NCBI GenBank assembly: GCA_021818445.1
Contig: JAKAEB010000002.1
Span: 1-64,000 of the forward strand
Origin: Planctomycetota bacterium
Lineage (GTDB): Bacteria; Planctomycetota; Phycisphaerae; WQYP01
Reading direction: 5' to 3'
DNA: 64,000 nucleotides
Of the stretch, positions 19,635-33,547 are shown in pieces (the stretch's first letter is position 1; every line of letters starts with the position of its first letter). The translations under genes were made by a program, and so were the position numbers. A model generated the notes under the pieces. It saw only the letters and a list, made by a program, of their open reading frames with translations, had not been told where the DNA came from and did not search any database.

Positions 19635-21155
19635 TCAGATTTTCAAAATCGCGGGATCCACTCGCGCCTTTATCGTGCGCCAATTTACACCAAGCCGCTT
19701 GGCAGCGGCCTGATAGCTGCCGGTGCGGGAATAGGCCAGCGTGGTATAAAAGCTCAGCAATTGATGCTCGCTTAATTCCACCGTCGCGATTCGGCCGAGC
19801 CATTCATCCATCTGCCCCGCACCACCTCTTGCCGGAGGATCGTAATGACGGCGCAGCAGAATGTTTCGGATGCATTGCTCCAGTTCGCGAAAGTTACCGG
19901 GCCAGGCATAGCCGGGATGTTCCATAATCCATGTTCGCACATCATCGTTCAAACGGCAGCGCATGTCGGTATCTTCAATCAAACCGGTGGTGATAAAGTT
20001 GATCAGGTTATCAATATCCTCCGGCGATTCAGAGAGTTGTTGTCGAAGCGAGGGTGTCGTAATGACATCCGAACAAAGCCTGAAGTAAAAATCCTCCCGA
20101 AATTTTCCATCCCGCATCAGGGCAGGCAGGTCGCGGTTGGTGGCGGCTATAATTTTGCCCTCAAAACGACGTGGTACGGTCTCGCCCACGCGTTCAAAGC
20201 TCCGGTATTGCAGGACGCGCAGCAACTTAACTTGAATCTGCGGGTCGGCATCGCCGATTTCATCCAAAAACAACGCCCCGTAGGGCGAACACGATTCCAG
20301 CCGCCCGATACGATCCTTCACCGCACCGGTAAAGGCCCCCTGCACGTGGCCAAAGAGTTCTGATTCAATCAGGCTTGGCGACAGGGCCGAAAGAACGGTG
20401 GTTGAGAAAAGTTTATCAACGGAATCCTTAAAGCCGCACGCTTTGGCGTCAAAGGGAATGTACTGTGCCCGGGCTACCGCCTGAGCGACGCGCTCCTTTC
20501 CCGCACCGGATGGGCCTAAAATAAGCGTCGCGATATCCCCCATCCTGCGATAAAGCTGCTGATGGTAGCAGCGCATGTCGTGGGTAAAAATGGATTCCCA
20601 TACGGCCGCCCGCAAACGCATCATGCACGGCGACAAACCGACAATCGATCGATATATACCCTGAAATGCCCGCGAAACCTGATAGCAACAGGCAAAAAGA
20701 TGTTCTGGCGTGTACTGACAGACTAATTTCCGGCCGGAAAATACCAACCGATGCCCAAACCCCGCCAGAAACCGGGCGTAAATATCGCGTACCGATGGTG
20801 CCGGGCCAGCCGCCATCAGCAGCCGAAAAAAATCACCCTCGATCGAATAATACAAATCAAATACGACCGCATCCTGATAAAGATTCCATTCATCGGCTGT
20901 AAGCTCGCCGCGACTGCGAATATATCGATTCCATTGCTCCACCTGACCGGCAATTTTATGGCGAAGGCGCACCTCGTTGGGACGCTCGCGCCCTTGGGCG
21001 GCGGCAAAATTCCACGCCTCATCAGACGCCACATATTGCGACCCTAACACTGCCCGCTCCGCCTCGGCCCGGCCGGGCATAAACGGGTTAATAAATGTCA
21101 GATGAGAAATCGCCTCAGCCAACCGTCTCTCCGCTGGCGTGAACATACTGGGCAT
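19635..21155 (-). CDS. Sigma-54-dependent transcriptional activator (bEBP)
   Basis: A 506-residue enhancer-binding protein that uses ATP to open sigma-54 promoters. Its N-terminal 190 residues (FINPFMPGRAEAERAVLG at the start) are not a receiver, GAF or PAS domain, and resemble the uncharacterised N-terminus of planctomycete bEBPs. The AAA+ domain has Walker A GPSGAGKERVAQ near 213, the sigma-54 contact loop GAFTGA near 270, LFLDEIGDA as Walker B and AATNRDL. A Fis-type HTH (YQAAAKRLGVNWRTIKARV) ends the protein. A GAGGTGG site supports the ATG at 21155. It is divergent from the hydrolase/LplT-Aas genes, which carry a sigma-54-like promoter, so they are its most likely targets. Confidence 0.92.
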   Translation of the reverse strand: MPSMFTPAERRLAEAISHLTFINPFMPGRAEAERAVLGSQYVASDEAWNFAAAQGRERPNEVRLRHKIAGQVEQWNRYIRSRGELTADEWNLYQDAVVFDLYYSIEGDFFRLLMAAGPAPSVRDIYARFLAGFGHRLVFSGRKLVCQYTPEHLFACCYQVSRAFQGIYRSIVGLSPCMMRLRAAVWESIFTHDMRCYHQQLYRRMGDIATLILGPSGAGKERVAQAVARAQYIPFDAKACGFKDSVDKLFSTTVLSALSPSLIESELFGHVQGAFTGAVKDRIGRLESCSPYGALFLDEIGDADPQIQVKLLRVLQYRSFERVGETVPRRFEGKIIAATNRDLPALMRDGKFREDFYFRLCSDVITTPSLRQQLSESPEDIDNLINFITTGLIEDTDMRCRLNDDVRTWIMEHPGYAWPGNFRELEQCIRNILLRRHYDPPARGGAGQMDEWLGRIATVELSEHQLLSFYTTLAYSRTGSYQAAAKRLGVNWRTIKARVDPAILKI

Positions 21156-21192
21156 GATACCACCTCGTCTACAAAGCCTACATTTTGTGTAT

Positions 21193-21220
21193 ATGATATG
21201 TGCGTTATTTGTATACGCAA
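21193..21220 (-). promoter_or_regulatory. Candidate sigma-70 promoter of the sigma-54 activator gene
   Basis: On the minus strand TTGCGT (21220-21215) and TATCAT (21198-21193) are 16 bases apart. The site lies 38 bases upstream of the activator ATG at 21155. Confidence 0.4.
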
Positions 21221-21272
21221 TGGCATTTCATAAAATTGATCGGTAACGGATGATCTAATACAAATCCTTTTA

Positions 21273-21288
21273 TTGTAACTAGTTACAA
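21273..21288. promoter_or_regulatory. Perfect 16-bp palindrome, candidate activator binding site
   Basis: TTGTAACTAGTTACAA is a perfect dyad in the divergent intergenic region, 15 bases upstream of the sigma-54-like promoter and 52 bases upstream of the activator's own -35 box. Enhancer sites for bEBPs are usually dyads of this size, although typically farther upstream. It could serve both genes. Confidence 0.5.
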
Positions 21289-21302
21289 CGCTTATTGTGG
21301 GC

Positions 21303-21319
21303 TTGGCATGGTAATTGTT
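21303..21319 (+). promoter_or_regulatory. Candidate sigma-54 (-24/-12) promoter
   Basis: TTGGCATGGTAATTGTT matches the sigma-54 consensus: TGGCA at -24, the exact 10-base spacing between the two dinucleotides, and TTG at -12. The invariant GC of the -12 element is GT here. It lies 55-71 bases upstream of the hydrolase ATG at 21374 and next to the gene for a sigma-54 activator, which raises its credibility. Confidence 0.55.
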
Positions 21320-21373
21320 CATCCCTGTGAGTCGGTTGGTCGGTTGACCAGCCAGTCTTGCTGAGGTTTTTTG

Positions 21374-22318
21374 ATGAAGGTTATGATCCGCTTACCGCAA
21401 TGCCGCCCTACTGCCCGCTCCACCTCGCTCCAATTAAACGCGAGCACTGATACCTGCAATTGCACCCGGCAATCGCAGGCCGGTATTATCGTCCGACCGC
21501 GCCCGATCCTGAGTCGCATCGGGCGAGCCATTAATCAGCACATCGATTTTGCCACCGCCGTCGCCGGGCGCCTGATCGGACGTGATCCATTTCAGCGGCT
21601 GGAAAATTCTGTTTGCCCTCGCGATTTGATGTGCGGCCTCACCATTATTCTGCCCGGCATTGAGGCCATCGGCCCCTACCCTGAAGAGATACGCGCCGGT
21701 CTGCGCGATGGTCAGGTGCCGGGCGCAATTGAGATATTTCGTTGGGGCCTGCCATTTCCCGAGGGGTTCTTCCGCAACCTGATGGATACGCGCCGCCATC
21801 GCGAGCAGGCCGCTTTGCTGGCAAAAATTATTTTGGCCCATCAAAATCAATACCCGCAATCGACCATTCATCTGGTTGCCAACAGCGGCGGTGCCGGACC
21901 GGCCCTGATGGCCATCGAATTGCTGCCGTTAAACCGCCCCATTGCCGGGATCGTTATCCTCGCGGGTGCGGCGTGGTGCGGCTACAACCTGCAACCAGTG
22001 TTGGCCCGCTGCACCAAAGGGGTGCTCAATGCATGGTCCCGCCGCGATGCGCTCATGCTGAATATGGGAACGCGCATTTTTGGCACCGCCGACCGACAAT
22101 TTGCTCCATCCTGCGGATACTGCGGGTTTACCATGAACCATGACAAAATTCAGCAGGTAGAATGGACGCCCGCTTATGGGCCGCAATGCGGCTGGTGGGG
22201 TACGCATGGTACGTCAACGAGCCGCCAGTTTATCAGCCGTCACATCGCCGCGTGGATCATCGCACCGGCCAACACAAATTCCGGACAATCCACAGGCATT
22301 TATGAGAGAACCATATGA
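21374..22318 (+). CDS. Alpha/beta-hydrolase-like protein
   Basis: The 314-residue protein is not a confident match to a named family. A central strand-turn-helix HLVANSGGAGPALMAIELL resembles a nucleophile elbow with Ser171. It is preceded by GLTIILPGIEAIGP, as expected for the first core strand, and followed by IAGIVILAGAAW as the next strand. A late cysteine-rich stretch (CGYCGFTMNHD, then CGWWGTHG) includes His residues that could complete a triad. There is no signal peptide. The ATG at 21374 is preferred to the TTG one codon earlier. It overlaps the LplT-Aas fusion by 4 bases, suggesting a lipid substrate such as a phospholipid or lysophospholipid. Confidence 0.55.
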   Translation: MKVMIRLPQCRPTARSTSLQLNASTDTCNCTRQSQAGIIVRPRPILSRIGRAINQHIDFATAVAGRLIGRDPFQRLENSVCPRDLMCGLTIILPGIEAIGPYPEEIRAGLRDGQVPGAIEIFRWGLPFPEGFFRNLMDTRRHREQAALLAKIILAHQNQYPQSTIHLVANSGGAGPALMAIELLPLNRPIAGIVILAGAAWCGYNLQPVLARCTKGVLNAWSRRDALMLNMGTRIFGTADRQFAPSCGYCGFTMNHDKIQQVEWTPAYGPQCGWWGTHGTSTSRQFISRHIAAWIIAPANTNSGQSTGIYERTI

Positions 22319-26421: not shown

Positions 26422-26450
26422 ATGACGTATCGATTGAGGCGACGTATAAT
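26422..26450 (+). promoter_or_regulatory. Candidate promoter of the transglutaminase/ATP-grasp cluster
   Basis: A perfect TATAAT at 26445-26450 is preceded, 17 bases upstream, by ATGACG (26422-26427), which matches TTGACA at four positions. The predicted start near 26457 gives a leader of about 95 bases before the ATG at 26552. Confidence 0.45.
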
Positions 26451-26551: not shown

Positions 26552-29500
26552 ATGTCCATCCGTGTTGCGCTCACCCACATTACCCACTACAAGTATGATC
26601 GGCTAATTCGAATGTCGCCGCATGTTGTGCGTTTGCGTCCGGCACCGCACACCCGCACGCCGATACTTAGTTATCGTTTGAAGGTAGCTCCCGAAAAACA
26701 TTTTTTGAATTGGCAGCAGGATCCATATTCCAACTATCTGGCGCGTCTGGCCTTTCCCGAACCGGCGGCAGAATTGCGCGTGGAGGTTGGTCTGGTGGCG
26801 GAAATGACCGTCATTAACCCATTTGATTTTTTTGTGGAGACGGCGGCCGAAAAATATCCGTTCCAGTATGAAAGTGTTCTACAGAAAGAATTGCAGCCTT
26901 ATTTGCATGCAGGTCCAGCGGGCTGTGAATTATCCCGGCTGGTGGCTTTGCATCAAAAGAAAAAACTCCGTTCAATAGATTTTTTAGTGGAAATTAACCG
27001 GGATATTCATCAGCGATTGAAGTATACGGTCAGGCTGGAGCCGGGTGTGCAATCACCCGAAGAGACACTGCGCCTTAAGCAGGGATCCTGTCGCGATTTT
27101 GCGTGGTTGCAGGTGAACCTGATGCGGCATCTGGGCTTGGCGGCTCGGTTTGTGTCGGGCTATCTCATACAACTGGTGGCAGATGTAAAACCGCTTGATG
27201 GGCCGGCCGGCACGCCGGTGGACTTTACAGATTTGCATGCATGGACGGAAGTTTATCTGCCGGGCGCGGGTTGGATTGGCTTGGACGCCACGAGCGGTTT
27301 GCTTACCGGTGAGGGGCATATCCCCTTGGCATGCACGGCGGAACCAAGTTCGGCAGCGCCGGTGAGTGGATTGGTGGATGAATGCAAGACTGAATTCAGC
27401 TTTGACATGACCGTAAAGCGAATTTATGAAACGCCCCGTGTCACAAAACCTTACAAACAGGAGCAATGGACGCAAATTGCATTGACCGGACAGCGTGTGG
27501 ATGACGATGCGGTCGCCGCAGACATTCGCATGACGATGGGTGGCGAGCCAACTTTTGTATCTATCGACGACATGGATGGCCCCGAGTGGAATAGTGCCGC
27601 ACTGGGGCCGAAGAAAAAATTGCTGGGTGCCGAATTACTCAAGCGCCTGCAAAAGCGTTTCGCCCCGGGTGGACTTCTGCATCATGGGCAGGGCAAATGG
27701 TACCCCGGAGAGTCTTTGCCGCGCTGGTCGTTTGCGTGTTTTTGGCGCAAGGATGGCCAGCCCATCTGGAATGATCCGCAACTTATTGCCGACGAAGCCA
27801 ACACTTCGTTATACGACAGCGTCCATGCCCGTCGATTCATCAATGCCCTCATCGAGCGACTCGGTGAAGGGGCAGCGTCTGAACACATCCTGCCGGCCTA
27901 CGAAGATGTGTGGTACTACCTTTGGAAGGAACGCCGTCTGCCGGTGAATGTAAATCCGCTGGACAACAAAATTGATAACCCGGAAGATCGTGCCCGGTTG
28001 GCCCGGGTATTTGAGGCAGGTTTGGATAAGGTCGTGGGCTATGCACTTCCGGTTCGTAATATTGGTTCTGCGGGCAGTGGATTTTGGCAAACCGGCGCCT
28101 GGTTTTTTCGGCCGGAGAAAATGTTTCTCATCCCCGGCGATTCTCCTATAGGGTATCGACTTCCGCTGGATTCCCTGCCCTGGGTCGGCAAGGTGGACTA
28201 TCCATATACCTATCCTCGGGACCCGATGGAAAAACTACCACCATTACCCCGTACGGCGCGACAGGGATTTATCCGCCGCGCACCGAGCACGGTGCAACCC
28301 TTGGGATTTCGCGAGCAGACAGCCGATGACTATATCAGCCCTGATGGATCGATGAGCCCGGAAATGCTCAAGGAGTATCGTCGGTTGCTGGCCGCCAGCA
28401 GCACGGAAAATGTCGAGCCTGGAAAGCCTGCGCCTTGGATTATCCGCACAGCTATCTGTGTGGAACCACGGAATGGTGTGCTGCGCATTTTCATGCCCCC
28501 GCTTCGGTATGCGGAGGACTATATTGATTTGGTCGCACGAATTGAAGACACCGCCCGCGCGCTGAACATGCCTGTGATGTTTGAAGGGTATCCTCCGCCA
28601 CCCGATCCACGACTCAACGTACTGAAGGTAACGCCCGATCCCGGCGTGATTGAGGTCAACATTCATCCAGCATCAACATGGCAGGAGGCCATTGACATCA
28701 CCACCGGGCTTTATGACGATGCGCACCATACTCGACTTGGTACTGAAAACTTCATGCTCGACGGACGACACTCTGGCACCGGTGGAGGCAATCACATCGT
28801 GGTTGGTGGCACCACCCCGGCCGACTCTCCTTTCCTTCGACGGCCGGATTTACTCAGAAGTCTGTTGACGTTCTGGCATAATCACCCATCGCTTTCGTAC
28901 CTGTTTTCCGGCTTGTTCATCGGACCGACCAGCCAGGCACCACGCGTTGACGAGGGCCGGGCGGATAACACATATGAACTGCAACTTGCCAATGAACAAA
29001 TTGCCAGGCAGGGCCGTCACACTCCGGCGTGGACGGTTGACCGCATTTACCGCAATTTACTGGTAGACCTGACAGGCAATACGCATCGGGCCGAGTTTTG
29101 CATCGATAAGCTTTACAGCCCGGATACATCATCGGGACGGCTGGGATTGGTTGAATTTCGTGGTTTTGAAATGCCTCCGCATCCGCACATGTCGCTTGCC
29201 CAGCAATTGTTAATCCGAGCACTGATTTCTGAATTTTGGCATCGACCCTACAGCGCCGAATTAGTCCGCTGGGGAACGCAACTTCACGATCGCTTCCTGC
29301 TCCCCCACTTTGTTGAAGAGGATTTCCGTGATGTGCTCAACTCCATTAAGGGATATAACCTCAGCCCGGAATGGTTTGCACCGCATCTGGAGTTTCGGTT
29401 TCCGATGATCGGTGAATTCACTGCCCCGCATATGGGAGGTGTGGAGGTGCAATTGCGGCAGGCCATCGAACCTTGGAACGTGCTGGGTGAAGAACCCGGT

Positions 29501-29947
29501 GGCGGTGGTACCGTTCGTTACGTCGATTCATCGCTTGAACGGCTGGAGATAAAAGCGCGTGGGCTTATTGATGGTCGCCACGCGCTGGCCTGTAATACCA
29601 TTGAAATTCCGCTGCATCCCACGGGAGCGCAGGGAGAATATGTGGCCGGCATCCGTTACCGCGCGTGGCAACCGGCAGCGTGCCTGCATCCGACCATCGG
29701 TATTCACACGCCATTGATTTTTGATCTGGTTGACAAATGGAATGGACGATCCGTAGGAGGATGCACGTATCATATTACCCATCCGGGAGGCCGATCTTAC
29801 GATACATTTCCAGTCAATGGGTTTGAGGCGCAGGCCCGCCGCGCAGCGCGGTTTTTTAAGTTTGGTCATACCCCTGGCGAATTGCGGATCAAGATCGCCG
29901 GGCGATCAAAAGATTTTCCGCTCACCCTTGATTTGAGGCGCGTATAG
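26552..29947 (+). CDS. Transglutaminase-like domain / DUF2126 fusion protein
   Basis: First gene of the widespread transglutaminase-ATP-grasp-alpha-E neighbourhood. The 1131 residues begin with the bacterial transglutaminase N-terminal beta domain (RVALTHITHYKYDRLIRMSPH). A papain-fold core follows with a triad of Cys180 (QGSCRDFAWL), His229 (DLHAWTEVYLPGAGW) and Asp245 (GLDATSG). From about residue 320 onward (MTMGGEPTFVSIDDMDGPEWN) the protein is a DUF2126 module, proposed to be an amidoligase-type ATP-grasp relative. No signal peptide, so it is cytoplasmic. By family knowledge the cluster likely builds and trims a peptide-like product, which has not been identified. Confidence 0.9.
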   Translation: MSIRVALTHITHYKYDRLIRMSPHVVRLRPAPHTRTPILSYRLKVAPEKHFLNWQQDPYSNYLARLAFPEPAAELRVEVGLVAEMTVINPFDFFVETAAEKYPFQYESVLQKELQPYLHAGPAGCELSRLVALHQKKKLRSIDFLVEINRDIHQRLKYTVRLEPGVQSPEETLRLKQGSCRDFAWLQVNLMRHLGLAARFVSGYLIQLVADVKPLDGPAGTPVDFTDLHAWTEVYLPGAGWIGLDATSGLLTGEGHIPLACTAEPSSAAPVSGLVDECKTEFSFDMTVKRIYETPRVTKPYKQEQWTQIALTGQRVDDDAVAADIRMTMGGEPTFVSIDDMDGPEWNSAALGPKKKLLGAELLKRLQKRFAPGGLLHHGQGKWYPGESLPRWSFACFWRKDGQPIWNDPQLIADEANTSLYDSVHARRFINALIERLGEGAASEHILPAYEDVWYYLWKERRLPVNVNPLDNKIDNPEDRARLARVFEAGLDKVVGYALPVRNIGSAGSGFWQTGAWFFRPEKMFLIPGDSPIGYRLPLDSLPWVGKVDYPYTYPRDPMEKLPPLPRTARQGFIRRAPSTVQPLGFREQTADDYISPDGSMSPEMLKEYRRLLAASSTENVEPGKPAPWIIRTAICVEPRNGVLRIFMPPLRYAEDYIDLVARIEDTARALNMPVMFEGYPPPPDPRLNVLKVTPDPGVIEVNIHPASTWQEAIDITTGLYDDAHHTRLGTENFMLDGRHSGTGGGNHIVVGGTTPADSPFLRRPDLLRSLLTFWHNHPSLSYLFSGLFIGPTSQAPRVDEGRADNTYELQLANEQIARQGRHTPAWTVDRIYRNLLVDLTGNTHRAEFCIDKLYSPDTSSGRLGLVEFRGFEMPPHPHMSLAQQLLIRALISEFWHRPYSAELVRWGTQLHDRFLLPHFVEEDFRDVLNSIKGYNLSPEWFAPHLEFRFPMIGEFTAPHMGGVEVQLRQAIEPWNVLGEEPGGGGTVRYVDSSLERLEIKARGLIDGRHALACNTIEIPLHPTGAQGEYVAGIRYRAWQPAACLHPTIGIHTPLIFDLVDKWNGRSVGGCTYHITHPGGRSYDTFPVNGFEAQARRAARFFKFGHTPGELRIKIAGRSKDFPLTLDLRRV

Positions 29948-30032
29948 TGTTTTATTTCTTCCAGGTTGACGTGAGGACAAACAATGACGGGTTATTGGCA
30001 GATTGTCCACTTTTCGGTAATGATGCCCACGC

Positions 30033-32597
30033 ATGACGACTGATCAACTTTCTGCAGTTAACAGCAGTGCATCTCCGAATCAGAGAGGGCTTTTCACCGA
30101 TTATACCCCTCAGGCGACGGCTCCTGACGACATGCTGGATGCCAATGGGCAGGTGCGTCCGCACTGGCGGCAAATTGTCCAGTTATTAAATGATATTGGA
30201 CCAGCGGAATTGGAAAAACGCTGGGCTACCGCCCGCCAACTGATCCATGAAAACGGCGTTACCTACAATGTGTACGGAGATCCAGCCGGGATGGATCGGC
30301 CGTGGGTGCTTGATGCACTGCCACTGGTATATTCGGCCGAAGAATGGAAAAATCTCTGCGATGGGCTTGTCCAGCGGGCACGCGTACTGGATTTGGCTTT
30401 GGCCGATCTGTACGGGCCGCAACATCTTCTTAAAGATTCAGTCATTCCGCCGGAAATTATTTATGCCAACCCGGCGTTTCTACGTCCGCTGCGAGGAGCC
30501 CGGCCGTCCGGCGACCGATGGCTCCATATGGCGGCGGCGGATGTCGGACGCAATGGAGATGGTGGTTTCTGCATTCTTGCCGACCGCACGCAAGCGCCCT
30601 CCGGTACCGGTTATGCATTGGAAAATCGGATTGTTGTGTCGCGGGCCATTCCGGATATTTTTCGTGATTGCCGGGTGAGTCGGCTGGCCACATTTTTCCG
30701 ATCGATGCGGCATCTGCTCCAGGTGGTAGCGCCCCATAACAAGGAAAATCCGCGCATCGTTCTGCTTACTCCCGGCCCATATAACGAAACCTATTTTGAA
30801 CACGCCTATTTGGCGCGGTACCTCGGCTATACCTTGGTAGAGGGTGCGGACCTCACTGTGCGAGATAGCCGTGTTTATATGAAGATGCTTGGTGGCCTGC
30901 AGCAAGTGGATGTCATTTTTCGACGGCAGGATGATAACTACTGCGATCCACTGGAACTCATGCCCGATAGCTCATTGGGTATTCCCGGACTTGTTCAAGC
31001 CGTGCATGCAGGCCACGTCACAGTCGTGAACGCCCTGGGATCGGGCCTGATGGAAACACCGGCATTGGAAATGTTTATACCTCACATATGCAAGTATCTA
31101 CTCGGCGAGGATCTCAAATTGCCGGCTGTGCGGTCTTACTGGTGCGGCGATCAGGATTCCATAGAGTTTGTGCTGGCCAATTTTAATAAATTGCTGATTA
31201 AACCGGCGTTTTACGCCAGCGGTGAGTCGCCGGTGTCGACGGAATCCCTTTCTGCAACGCAAATGGAGCAGTTGCGGGCCAAGGTGCGGGCTAATCCATC
31301 ACAATATGTGGCTGAGGAGCAAATTCCTCTATCCACCGCGCCGGTGATGATAGACGGACACGTCGAACCCCGGCACATTGCCTTTCGGGCGCACATGGTG
31401 GCAGCGGGCGACAGCTATACCGTCATGCCCGGTGGACTTGCCCGCTTTTCCATCTCTGCCGAATCGATGATCGTATCGATGCAGCGTGGTGGTGGTTCTA
31501 AAGATACATGGGTGCTTTCCGGCGGTCCGGTTGATTCATTCAGCATGCTTACGCCGCCGGGTGCGCCGATGGGTGTTTCCCGCGCCGGTGGCGACTTATC
31601 GAGCCGCGTTGCCGACAATCTATATTGGCTGGGTCGCTACGTAGAACGTGCCGAAGCCATTGTCAGGTTGGCGCGGGGAATAGTAAGTCGATTGGTGGAT
31701 CAGAATTTTGAATCCAGCCCGGAATTGCCCACCATTCTTGGCGCCCTGGTGGGACAGGCAAAGCTGAGCAGTCCAGATTTAAAATCCGGAGGCGGGGAAG
31801 AATTGCTCAACCACATCCTTTTTGATAGCGACCTTCCTTATGGGATGCAGATAACGCTTTCCTCGATATATCGCACGGCGAGTCTTGTACGCGACCGCAT
31901 GTCCATTGACACATGGCGGATTCTTAATCGATTGGACGCAGATTTTTCAGCCAGCAATGCCCAATCTGGTCAGTTAAGTGAACTGCTGGCATCGCTGGAT
32001 AAATTAATCGTCACTTTTGCGGCCTTCGGTGGCCTTGCCATGGAATCAATGACACGCGGATTGGCGTGGAGATTTCTTGACATTGGGAGGCGAATTGAAC
32101 GCGGGGTCAACATCGTGCAGCTCTGCCTGAGCACTTTGTGCAGCCCGCAGGCACTCCCCCCGACAACCATGGAGGCTATTCTGGAAGTGGCGGATTCCGC
32201 GATCACGTATCGCCGACGGTACATGACATCACTTCAGACGCCTCTGCTTGCCGATCTTCTGCTCGCGGATGAAACCAATCCGCGCGCTCTGGCATTCCAA
32301 TTGGTGCGATTACAGGAACATGTGGCTTTGTTGCCGGGAAATCACCTGGAGGTGCAGTTGACACCCGTCGAGCAGATACTATTGCGGCGGTTGACCGAGT
32401 TGCGTCTCGCCGATTTTGGCCAGCTTACCGTTATACAGCACACGGATGGGTCGGGCCTGCGCCAATTGGTGAACATGGTGATGGCAGATTTATTCAAACT
32501 TTCTGACCTGATCAGTCAAAAATATTTAAGTCATGCGGCGCAGAGTCGGCAAATTGGTCCGTCGACTATCAGTATTCCCCCGAAGGAACGCCTCTAG
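30033..32597 (+). CDS. Circularly permuted ATP-grasp / alpha-E (DUF403) fusion protein
   Basis: The 854-residue protein joins two parts that many bacteria encode separately. Residues 1-500 are the circularly permuted type 2 ATP-grasp domain (YGDPAGMDRPWVLDALPLV, FILADRTQAPSGTGYALENR pattern, VLLTPGPYNETYFEHAYLAR, EGADLTVRDSRVYMK). From about residue 520 the alpha-E helical domain begins, SSRVADNLYWLGRYVERAEA, and runs to the end. ATP-grasp enzymes ligate a carboxylate to an amine, so a peptide bond-forming role is expected. It lies between two transglutaminase genes and shares their direction; the ATG at 30033 is 85 bases past the preceding stop and has no strong ribosome site. Confidence 0.9.
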   Translation: MTTDQLSAVNSSASPNQRGLFTDYTPQATAPDDMLDANGQVRPHWRQIVQLLNDIGPAELEKRWATARQLIHENGVTYNVYGDPAGMDRPWVLDALPLVYSAEEWKNLCDGLVQRARVLDLALADLYGPQHLLKDSVIPPEIIYANPAFLRPLRGARPSGDRWLHMAAADVGRNGDGGFCILADRTQAPSGTGYALENRIVVSRAIPDIFRDCRVSRLATFFRSMRHLLQVVAPHNKENPRIVLLTPGPYNETYFEHAYLARYLGYTLVEGADLTVRDSRVYMKMLGGLQQVDVIFRRQDDNYCDPLELMPDSSLGIPGLVQAVHAGHVTVVNALGSGLMETPALEMFIPHICKYLLGEDLKLPAVRSYWCGDQDSIEFVLANFNKLLIKPAFYASGESPVSTESLSATQMEQLRAKVRANPSQYVAEEQIPLSTAPVMIDGHVEPRHIAFRAHMVAAGDSYTVMPGGLARFSISAESMIVSMQRGGGSKDTWVLSGGPVDSFSMLTPPGAPMGVSRAGGDLSSRVADNLYWLGRYVERAEAIVRLARGIVSRLVDQNFESSPELPTILGALVGQAKLSSPDLKSGGGEELLNHILFDSDLPYGMQITLSSIYRTASLVRDRMSIDTWRILNRLDADFSASNAQSGQLSELLASLDKLIVTFAAFGGLAMESMTRGLAWRFLDIGRRIERGVNIVQLCLSTLCSPQALPPTTMEAILEVADSAITYRRRYMTSLQTPLLADLLLADETNPRALAFQLVRLQEHVALLPGNHLEVQLTPVEQILLRRLTELRLADFGQLTVIQHTDGSGLRQLVNMVMADLFKLSDLISQKYLSHAAQSRQIGPSTISIPPKERL

Positions 32598-32632
32598 ATT
32601 GGCGAGTTGTCCCTTTTTTTGAGAGTTTCAGA

Positions 32633-33547
32633 ATGGCGGTATTTAGAATTCGGCATTTGACGCGTTATCGCTATCAGGAACCCGTGACGGTGTGTCATAA
32701 CTTGGCACACCTGATTCCACGCGACACCCCCCGACATACATGGACGCAAATAGACTTGGACATAACGCCTGACGCACCACGCTCCATGCGAAATGATTAT
32801 TTCGGAAATCGCATGACGGTTTTTGGCATCGACGAACCTCATCGTGAACTGCAGGTGGTGTCGCGATGTATGGTGGATCTTGCACCTCCGTTGATGTCAT
32901 CGCTGTTTCCCACCGGCCCATGGGAATCGGTTGGTAAAATGCTCTCCGGTAGGCCTCAGGGAGAATTGCTGGCCGCGTGCGAATTTCGTTTTCGCTCGCC
33001 GCAGATCAATTGGAACTCGGACATATACAATTGGACCATGCAGTCATTTACGCCGTCACGACCATTGGCAGACGCCGTTCTGGATTTGAGCAGCCGCATT
33101 TACAAAGAATTTAAATTTGTCAGCGGTTCCACAAATATCTCCACGCGCGTTGATGAAGTATTTCAACGACGAACAGGGGTTTGCCAGGACTTCGCCCACC
33201 TGGCCATTGCCTGTTTCCGATCCGTGGGCCTCGCGGCGCGATATGTATCTGGTTATCTGGTCACAGCCCCCCCACCCGGGCAGCAACGGTTGATCGGTGC
33301 CGACGCGTCGCACGCCTGGGTCAGTGTTTATGTGCCGGAATATGGCTGGATGGATATCGACCCAACCAATCATGTTTGGCCTTTGGAGCGGCATATTACC
33401 GTCGCCTGGGGGCGAGATTTTTCTGACGTTTCGCCGTTACGGGGGGTTATTCTGGGTGGCGGTAAGCACGAAGTAACCGTTGGTGTCGATGTCATACCGC
33501 TGGATGGCGATGATGACACAAATGCCCCGGTAGTACCGCTCAATTAG
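32633..33547 (+). CDS. Transglutaminase-like cysteine protein
   Basis: The 304-residue protein repeats the design of the first gene's N-terminus. A beta domain (AVFRIRHLTRYRYQEPVTVCHN) is followed by a transglutaminase core with Cys184 (RTGVCQDFAHLAIACFRS), His227 (DASHAWVSVYVPEYGW) and Asp243 (DIDPTN). Such proteins can act as peptidases or amide-forming enzymes. It closes the three-gene cluster 35 bases after the ATP-grasp/alpha-E gene. It lacks a signal peptide and is of normal length. Confidence 0.92.
   Translation: MAVFRIRHLTRYRYQEPVTVCHNLAHLIPRDTPRHTWTQIDLDITPDAPRSMRNDYFGNRMTVFGIDEPHRELQVVSRCMVDLAPPLMSSLFPTGPWESVGKMLSGRPQGELLAACEFRFRSPQINWNSDIYNWTMQSFTPSRPLADAVLDLSSRIYKEFKFVSGSTNISTRVDEVFQRRTGVCQDFAHLAIACFRSVGLAARYVSGYLVTAPPPGQQRLIGADASHAWVSVYVPEYGWMDIDPTNHVWPLERHITVAWGRDFSDVSPLRGVILGGGKHEVTVGVDVIPLDGDDDTNAPVVPLN

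Follow-up and report, generated by a model that had tools for sequence, protein, structure and literature searches.

We read the locus described here, at a probability of roughly 0.62, as a self-contained sigma-54 switch with lipid turnover or repair as its output, and as one member of a PspF-like family of envelope-stress switches that has recruited different envelope operons. The locus lies in the window, by which we mean the whole 64-kb stretch of DNA analysed, where a sigma-54 activator (bEBP) is divergent from a lipase-like hydrolase gene and an LplT-Aas-type fusion gene (Table 1). Comparison among genomes shows a sigma-54 promoter, two further conserved elements, a divergent layout, recurrent targets and an empty site in the same-genus genome G394, and we regard the regulatory architecture as well supported. 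A role of the window operon in membrane-lipid turnover or repair is slightly favoured.

Table 1. Features of the switch and its divergent operon, in window coordinates
Feature	Position	Strand	Remarks
Activator-hydrolase gap	21156-21373		218 bases; activator ATG (complement) at 21155, hydrolase ATG at 21374
Sigma-54 activator (bEBP), 506 aa	19635..21155	-	N-domain about 1-206; AAA+ with GAFTGA 273-278; conserved C-terminal tail
ACAT-N3-ATGT-like copy 1, ACATTTTGTGT	21180..21190		1 mismatch; enhancer candidate
ACAT-N3-ATGT-like copy 2, ATATGATATGT	21191..21201		1 mismatch; 11 bases from copy 1
Conserved 25-base palindrome element, CAAATCCTTTTATTGTAACTAGTTA	21261..21285		Begins 43 bases upstream of the -24 TGG
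Perfect dyad, TTGTAACTAGTTACAA, 16 bases	21273..21288		Shares its first 13 bases with the right part of the palindrome above
Sigma-54 -24/-12 promoter, TTGGCATGGTAATTGTT	21303..21319	+
GAGG, putative ribosome-binding site of hydrolase gene	21363..21366	+	Read directly
Alpha/beta-hydrolase-like, lipase-like, 314 aa	21374..22318	+
LplT-Aas-type fusion (MFS LplT-like, acyltransferase, ACP, AMP-binding), 1330 aa	22315..26307	+

Sigma-54 promoter

Promoter-like sites were sought on both strands of the 160 bases lying 60 to 220 bases upstream of the activator start at every locus, using a sigma-54 weight matrix with approximate weights after the published consensus; of the 88 loci, the 86 with at least 220 bases of upstream DNA were taken into the counts. 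A site scoring at least 10 faces the divergent operon in 57 of the 86 loci; the opposite strand has such a site in 3, and shuffled sequences in about 2.5. By set, these forward sites occur at 25/43 loci of the phylum, 29/39 of the class and 3/4 of other phyla, and the corresponding reverse-strand counts are 2, 1 and 0 (1.32, 1.1 and 0.03 in dinucleotide shuffles). The first-pass annotation had described a sigma-54-like promoter reading toward the hydrolase/LplT-Aas operon, and this promoter is indeed located in the gap, scores 10.8, and has the conservation just given. It is the sole exact TGGCAYG-N4-TTGYW in the window, and the genome holds 8 such sites versus 3 for a reversed-pattern control. 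Its -12 element is GT where the canonical one is GC; among relatives, the promoter of L057 is TGGCATGGGAGTTGTT and that of L071 is a perfect consensus. A sigma-70-like promoter had also been proposed for the activator itself and was not recovered, as the gap contains no minus-strand site of 9/12 or better. At one locus (L204, in genome G488) the hydrolase match starts just 74 bases from the activator and no sigma-54-like site is present (score 2.9), an arrangement that may reflect a deletion or an assembly fault.

Conserved elements upstream of the promoter

The conserved 25-base palindrome TAAGTC.TTT.....AAA.GACTTA lies about 57 bases upstream of the inferred start and occupies about -69 to -45. 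It was evaluated in loci with a promoter score of at least 7.5 located at least 75 bases from the activator start (70 loci), from which 4 near-duplicates were removed to leave 66. When these are aligned on the promoter, the half-sites VTAAS and STTAB, which are the ends of the palindrome, cluster at -44 to -41 and at -22 to -20 relative to the TGG; VTAAS is found in 22/66 loci, STTAB in 25/66 and both in 10/66, with shuffle means of 1.8, 1.8 and 0.05. In leave-one-out scoring the palindrome is recovered in 41 of the 66 loci at a score of at least 8 (1.5 expected). Trained on the 30 loci of a single tree clade, a model recovers the palindrome at a score of at least 6 in 20 of 40 loci outside that clade (1.0 expected), mostly at the same place; for the window palindrome, p is 0.002 when the training loci come from the clade without the window. 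These alignments support a cis-site at the dyad that is conserved over many genomes.

The perfect dyad reported close upstream of the promoter is present, yet it is mostly part of this longer palindrome (its right part plus three bases) and not a motif of its own. In the window it is the sole match with up to 3 mismatches (0.06 expected), and in the genome it is the sole exact match, with 6 places at up to 2 mismatches versus 4 for a control. Since it is unique in the genome and hardly enriched, the dyad by itself is no marker of other sigma-54 promoters, near which the first pass had suggested looking for it, and its use as a regulon-wide marker is ruled out.

Closer to the activator, the first 100 bases from its start contain ACAT-N3-ATGT with at most one mismatch in 62/86 loci (7.5 in shuffles), and the next 100 bases in 5/86 (3.2 in shuffles). 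The pairs are spaced by 22 bases in 34 loci and by 11 in 15, equal to two or one helix turns; a pair 21-23 bases apart is found in 49 of the 86 loci (1.5 in shuffles), and the pair centre has a median of about 132 bases upstream of the inferred start. The window copies are imperfect. On sequence grounds, this position and phasing would suit a bEBP enhancer extending over the promoter region of the activator itself, with the activator as presumed binder; lying at a classical enhancer distance, the ACAT pairs are a better enhancer candidate than the dyad or palindrome. Further doubled ACAT sites, which could indicate another binder, are mostly weak among the matches listed. Among the same matches, which cover eight of 15 genomes, the doubled site with the fewest mismatches is the activator's own in the class genomes G680, G674, G500 and G556, which suggests a dedicated binder, and is not its own in G668, G461, G388 and G713. 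In loci such as L225, L229 and L080, the ACAT pairs often end at or within 2 bases of the chosen activator start codon and overlap TTGACA-like and TACATT-like boxes, suggesting a leaderless activator mRNA and an overlap of enhancer and promoter.

The activator and its family

The window activator possesses an intact Sigma54_activat domain with GAFTGA (E 2.6e-42), and its Pfam scan is empty ahead of residue 207, in agreement with the earlier observation that it lacks a standard sensor domain. The N-domains of 29 members likewise gave no convincing Pfam match (a single match in one member, E 0.0012), and a known Pfam sensor domain is ruled out by these scans taken with that of the window activator. 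The N-domain is predicted to be all-helical (pLDDT 79, five sequences), with residues N23, P24, R162, G173, S175, L181, R182, W186 and F190 invariant in the 29 members. Comparison with PDB structures gave no Foldseek match at an E of 0.001 or better and a best Z of 4.9, an absence that is not proof of a new fold. The proposal that lipid damage is sensed by this domain is tentative. The C-terminal tail is conserved, with R493 and T494 invariant; the Pfam scan found no HTH match there, and by likeness the tail is a putative HTH. RpoN is encoded in the same genome (194 bits). The activator does not reach the PspF equivalog cut-off (152.1 versus 443.55 bits), nor does it exceed the curated cut-off of the RtcR, NifA, NtrC, NorR or other bEBP equivalogs, the best being RtcR with 177 versus 650 bits.

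Relatives of the N-terminal 215 residues are present in 44/392 genomes of the phylum with one match apiece, and a profile search finds the activator family in 55/397 genomes of the class and 9/28 of the order. Among the matches listed from a scan of named genomes with AAA-domain patterns, which under-samples the family outside the phylum, four of the 80 loci retained (L086-L089) are nearly full-length relatives, from Sumerlaeota, Opitutales, Desulfocapsa and Methylococcaceae. The family is almost always present in one copy per genome where it occurs, with sporadic occurrence in other phyla, and genome G483 has two partial matches on two contigs. A viral origin was rejected after a search of viral contigs yielded no confirmed relative. 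The activator represents an undescribed but widespread family within a known kind of system, with an N-domain new to Pfam.

The hydrolase, the LplT-Aas-type protein and their history

LplT-Aas systems re-import lysophospholipids and re-acylate them. The LplT-Aas name given at first pass is right in kind, as MFS_1, Acyltransferase, PP-binding and AMP-binding domains are found by Pfam in one chain, although the score against NF006386 (683 bits) stays under the curated cut-off of 1221. Residues 711-764 of the protein, which separate acyltransferase and ligase, form an acyl-carrier (PP-binding) domain of its own. The hydrolase has no Pfam match and its predicted structure has a pLDDT of 32; its profile matches Bacillus subtilis lipase A (E 7e-5), and S171, D225 and H278, a predicted Ser-His-Asp triad, are invariant in 5 aligned members (L204 and L202 were left out for a stop codon in the range taken). 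A close tie to the BipL-type hydrolases was rejected, as an hhalign probability of 1.4 gives no sign of relationship. The hydrolase stop and the LplT-Aas-type start overlap by 4 bases (22315-22318), which suggests co-translation. Downstream, at 26552-33547, lies a cluster of DUF2126 amidoligase, circularly permuted ATP-grasp/Alpha-E and transglutaminase-like genes, preceded by a sigma-70-like site at 26422-26450 (10/12); this cluster is probably a unit separate from the LplT-Aas operon.

Within the taxonomic family of the window, the activator keeps the hydrolase in 6 of the 7 other loci with upstream DNA (L199, L200, L202 and L204-L206), and in these six genomes the MFS-Aas matches are on other contigs; the hydrolase is missing from L201, and for L203 there is no upstream DNA. 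In same-genus G394, the MFS, ABC-F, NUDIX, MFS-Aas and DUF2126 genes occur in the same order without activator and hydrolase. NUDIX stands beside a 5'-truncated MFS-Aas gene, again without the two genes, in same-genus G469, and same-genus G410 has a weak AMP-ligase match only. Because LplT-Aas occurs in this genus without the activator, activator and hydrolase look inserted. The simplest reading of the gene orders is that an activator-hydrolase unit was probably inserted before a pre-existing MFS-Aas gene, the hydrolase stop coming to overlap its start; loss of both genes in G394 and G469, instead of insertion in the window lineage, is a possible but less simple reading.

Divergent targets across the family

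In the 88 loci, genes of the query list are always divergent from the activator and never upstream on the same strand. The most frequent are VIT-vWA (27), radical SAM (24), MFS-Aas (22), BipL-like hydrolase (17) and rhombosortase (14), followed by a 136-residue membrane protein (10), the window-type hydrolase (7), BcrD-type (6) and BcrA-type (5) proteins and DUF2339 (3). Where at least 5 kb of upstream DNA is available (69 loci), a lipid-type module is found in 31, a VIT gene within 1 kb in 22 and MFS-Aas in 21; another 15 have no module of the query list, and of 7 nearby divergent ORFs scanned from loci without a listed module, 6 gave no Pfam match and one was an outer-membrane efflux protein. 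As VIT-vWA is as common as MFS-Aas and 15/69 loci lack any listed module, lipid is not the common denominator. The earlier designation of a lipid operon as target thus holds in so far as MFS-Aas is recurrent and in some loci stands beside DUF2339/Arc3A-type or phospholipase-like genes, but not for the 22/69 loci with VIT-vWA close by. Likewise, the divergent pair is kept in relatives with respect to divergence, sigma-54 promoter and cis-site, and with MFS-Aas in 21/69, whereas in the taxonomic family of the window it is the hydrolase and not MFS-Aas that the activator keeps.

On a tree of the activators (83 of 88 rows, those of at least 380 residues), a minimum of 12 changes in the VIT/lipid state and of 8 in the presence of MFS-Aas is needed, with MFS-Aas recurring in separate clades, so one switch has repeatedly been joined to different envelope operons. 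The Desulfocapsa locus has an MFS-Aas gene that directly faces the activator. In the Methylococcaceae locus (L089) the divergent gene is PspA-like, at 32.3 bits just below the cut-off of 33.9. DUF2339 is directly divergent in L064 (433 bits, above cut-off) and also present in the divergent operon of L043, and the BipL-type hydrolase reaches 219 bits, below its cut-off of 450. A fatty acid desaturase is found in L068, and the radical SAM genes have their best NCBIfam matches among BchE/HpnJ-type models, each scoring well under its cut-off.

In 26/88 loci the first gene matched within 1.1 kb encodes a VIT-vWA protein. A loose pattern detects GlyGly-type tails in 20 of 26 VIT proteins, and 3 of the other 6 are truncated by a contig end. 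At loci within L040-L082 and L199-L238, VIT-vWA genes with GlyGly-CTERM-like tails (GGGGGALDP...) are followed by rhombosortase in at least 14/88 loci (tblastn, at least 50 bits); in L056 the rhombosortase scores 96.1 against a cut-off of 84, and the VIT protein 236.8 against the TIGR03788 cut-off of 551.65. These genes may form a dedicated surface-protein system under a sigma-54 switch. BcrA/BcrD-type reductase genes, whose parts we presume to resemble plasmalogen synthase halves, are divergent in L073, L221, L224, L231 and L237, and in four of these five they adjoin a B12 radical SAM gene. It is possible that such operons encode a new lipid modification pathway.

Proposed mechanism and alternatives

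In the mechanism we infer for binders, signal and repair function, the activator would be made from its own promoter; its probable targets are the paired ACAT-N3-ATGT sites, which lie some 120-145 bases ahead of the sigma-54 start. The helical N-domain, or a partner acting on it, would report envelope disturbance, upon which the AAA+ ring would open sigma-54 polymerase at 21304-21319, while the palindrome may be occupied by another protein or by a second dimer of the activator. The resulting transcript would couple translation of the lipase-like hydrolase to that of the LplT-Aas-type protein, and the latter would carry lysophospholipids inward and re-acylate them for lipid turnover or repair. 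As ACAT sites lie just before the activator gene, the activator may also limit its own synthesis, as PspF does. The roles of the two elements could be swapped, with the activator binding the 25-base palindrome and a separate repressor binding the ACAT pairs over the activator promoter. Conservation of both elements with the activator, together with ACAT repeats directly before its start in many loci, would suit this assignment. We nevertheless consider it doubtful, since the distance and 11/22-base phasing of the ACAT pairs fit two activator dimers, the palindrome is unusually close for an enhancer, and the best doubled ACAT match is the activator's own in several genomes, although not in others, among the matches listed. 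That promoter and dyad are accidents of AT-rich intergenic DNA is extremely improbable, for the imperfect window promoter, with its GT at -12, has to be set against the cross-locus promoter and palindrome statistics that contradict chance.

The nature of the output allows other readings. The operon might make or modify special membrane lipids, without repair, in response to a growth condition such as redox or temperature. Relatives whose switch faces B12 radical SAM (24/88), BcrD-type (6/88), BcrA-type (5/88), desaturase or MFS-Aas genes are compatible with this, but we judge it rather unlikely, because stress or repair accounts better for the Arc3A-type DUF2339, BipL-type phospholipase and PspA-like genes that occupy this position and because no radical SAM or Bcr gene adjoins the window's switch. 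Less probable still is a switch that serves a cell-surface programme of VIT-vWA with GlyGly-CTERM and rhombosortase, in which lipid genes come along as secondary cargo and true control in the window is confined to the hydrolase. The frequent first position of VIT-vWA, the GlyGly-type tails, the rhombosortase above cut-off in L056 and the status of MFS-Aas as a new neighbour in the window speak for it, and the recurrence of MFS-Aas in separate tree clades and its 4-base overlap with the hydrolase speak against it. Beyond the envelope-stress switch that we prefer, a bolder extension, speculative and in our view improbable, is cross-phylum danger sensing, in which a new helical sensor domain would detect lipid or envelope attack (e.g., phospholipase toxins) and induce interchangeable repair kits: LplT-Aas, Arc3A, phospholipase, PspA-like and surface VIT-vWA proteins. 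If this were true, the switch would belong to the further signalling systems whose existence outside Gac/Rsm bacteria the Arc3 report expects (PMC8926400).

These data describe a family of sigma-54 switches defined by a cis-code (enhancer pairs, proximal palindrome and promoter) and an uncharacterised sensor domain. Because the same switch has repeatedly acquired different envelope operons, its signal is testable with simple reporters. The family also provides a concrete candidate for the induction of LplT-Aas and Arc3-type membrane defence in bacteria without Gac/Rsm.

Comparison with known systems

According to the Arc3 report, Arc3A (DUF2339) and Aas of Pseudomonas aeruginosa both limit lysophospholipid harm after phospholipase attack, Arc3A by preventing lysophospholipid build-up, and aas genes adjoin arc3 genes in many bacteria; its authors expect other signalling systems outside Gac/Rsm bacteria (PMC8926400). 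The present family resembles that defence in its LplT-Aas fusion and in the DUF2339 genes of the L064 and L043 divergent operons, and differs in that a sigma-54 activator takes the place of Gac/Rsm control and no DUF2339 gene adjoins the window's switch. A general role for sigma-54 in controlling the bacterial exterior has been proposed (PMC3162934), BipL is described as a putative biofilm-affecting phospholipase (PMC10597414) and the VIT/GlyGly-CTERM/sortase theme has been set out (PMC3237569). The words "lysophospholipid", "von Willebrand", "rhomboid" and "acyltransferase" are absent from the main text of a recent sigma-54 regulon survey (PMC12316311). Our literature searches found no paper joining rhombosortase with sigma-54 and nothing joining DUF2339/Arc3A with sigma-54, and sigma-54 was not mentioned among the matches listed for LplT, Aas and lysophospholipid.

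VIT-vWA with a dedicated sortase or rhombosortase (TIGR03788, TIGR03902) constitutes the target operon of many family members; unlike in those systems, no VIT or rhombosortase gene adjoins the window's switch. NorR binds GT-N7-AC enhancer repeats and senses NO with a GAF domain. The present family is similar in its short palindromic enhancer repeats upstream of a divergent operon and dissimilar in that the Pfam scan found no GAF domain in the window activator. PspF has no N-terminal sensor domain, is held by PspA, and limits its own synthesis through an enhancer overlapping its own promoter. Like PspF and pspABC of Escherichia coli, the family pairs a bEBP without receiver, PAS or GAF domain with a divergent envelope-stress operon and has a candidate enhancer that would overlap the activator's own promoter, and L089 even faces a PspA-like gene; unlike PspF, its members carry a conserved helical N-domain of about 200 residues and face many different target operons.
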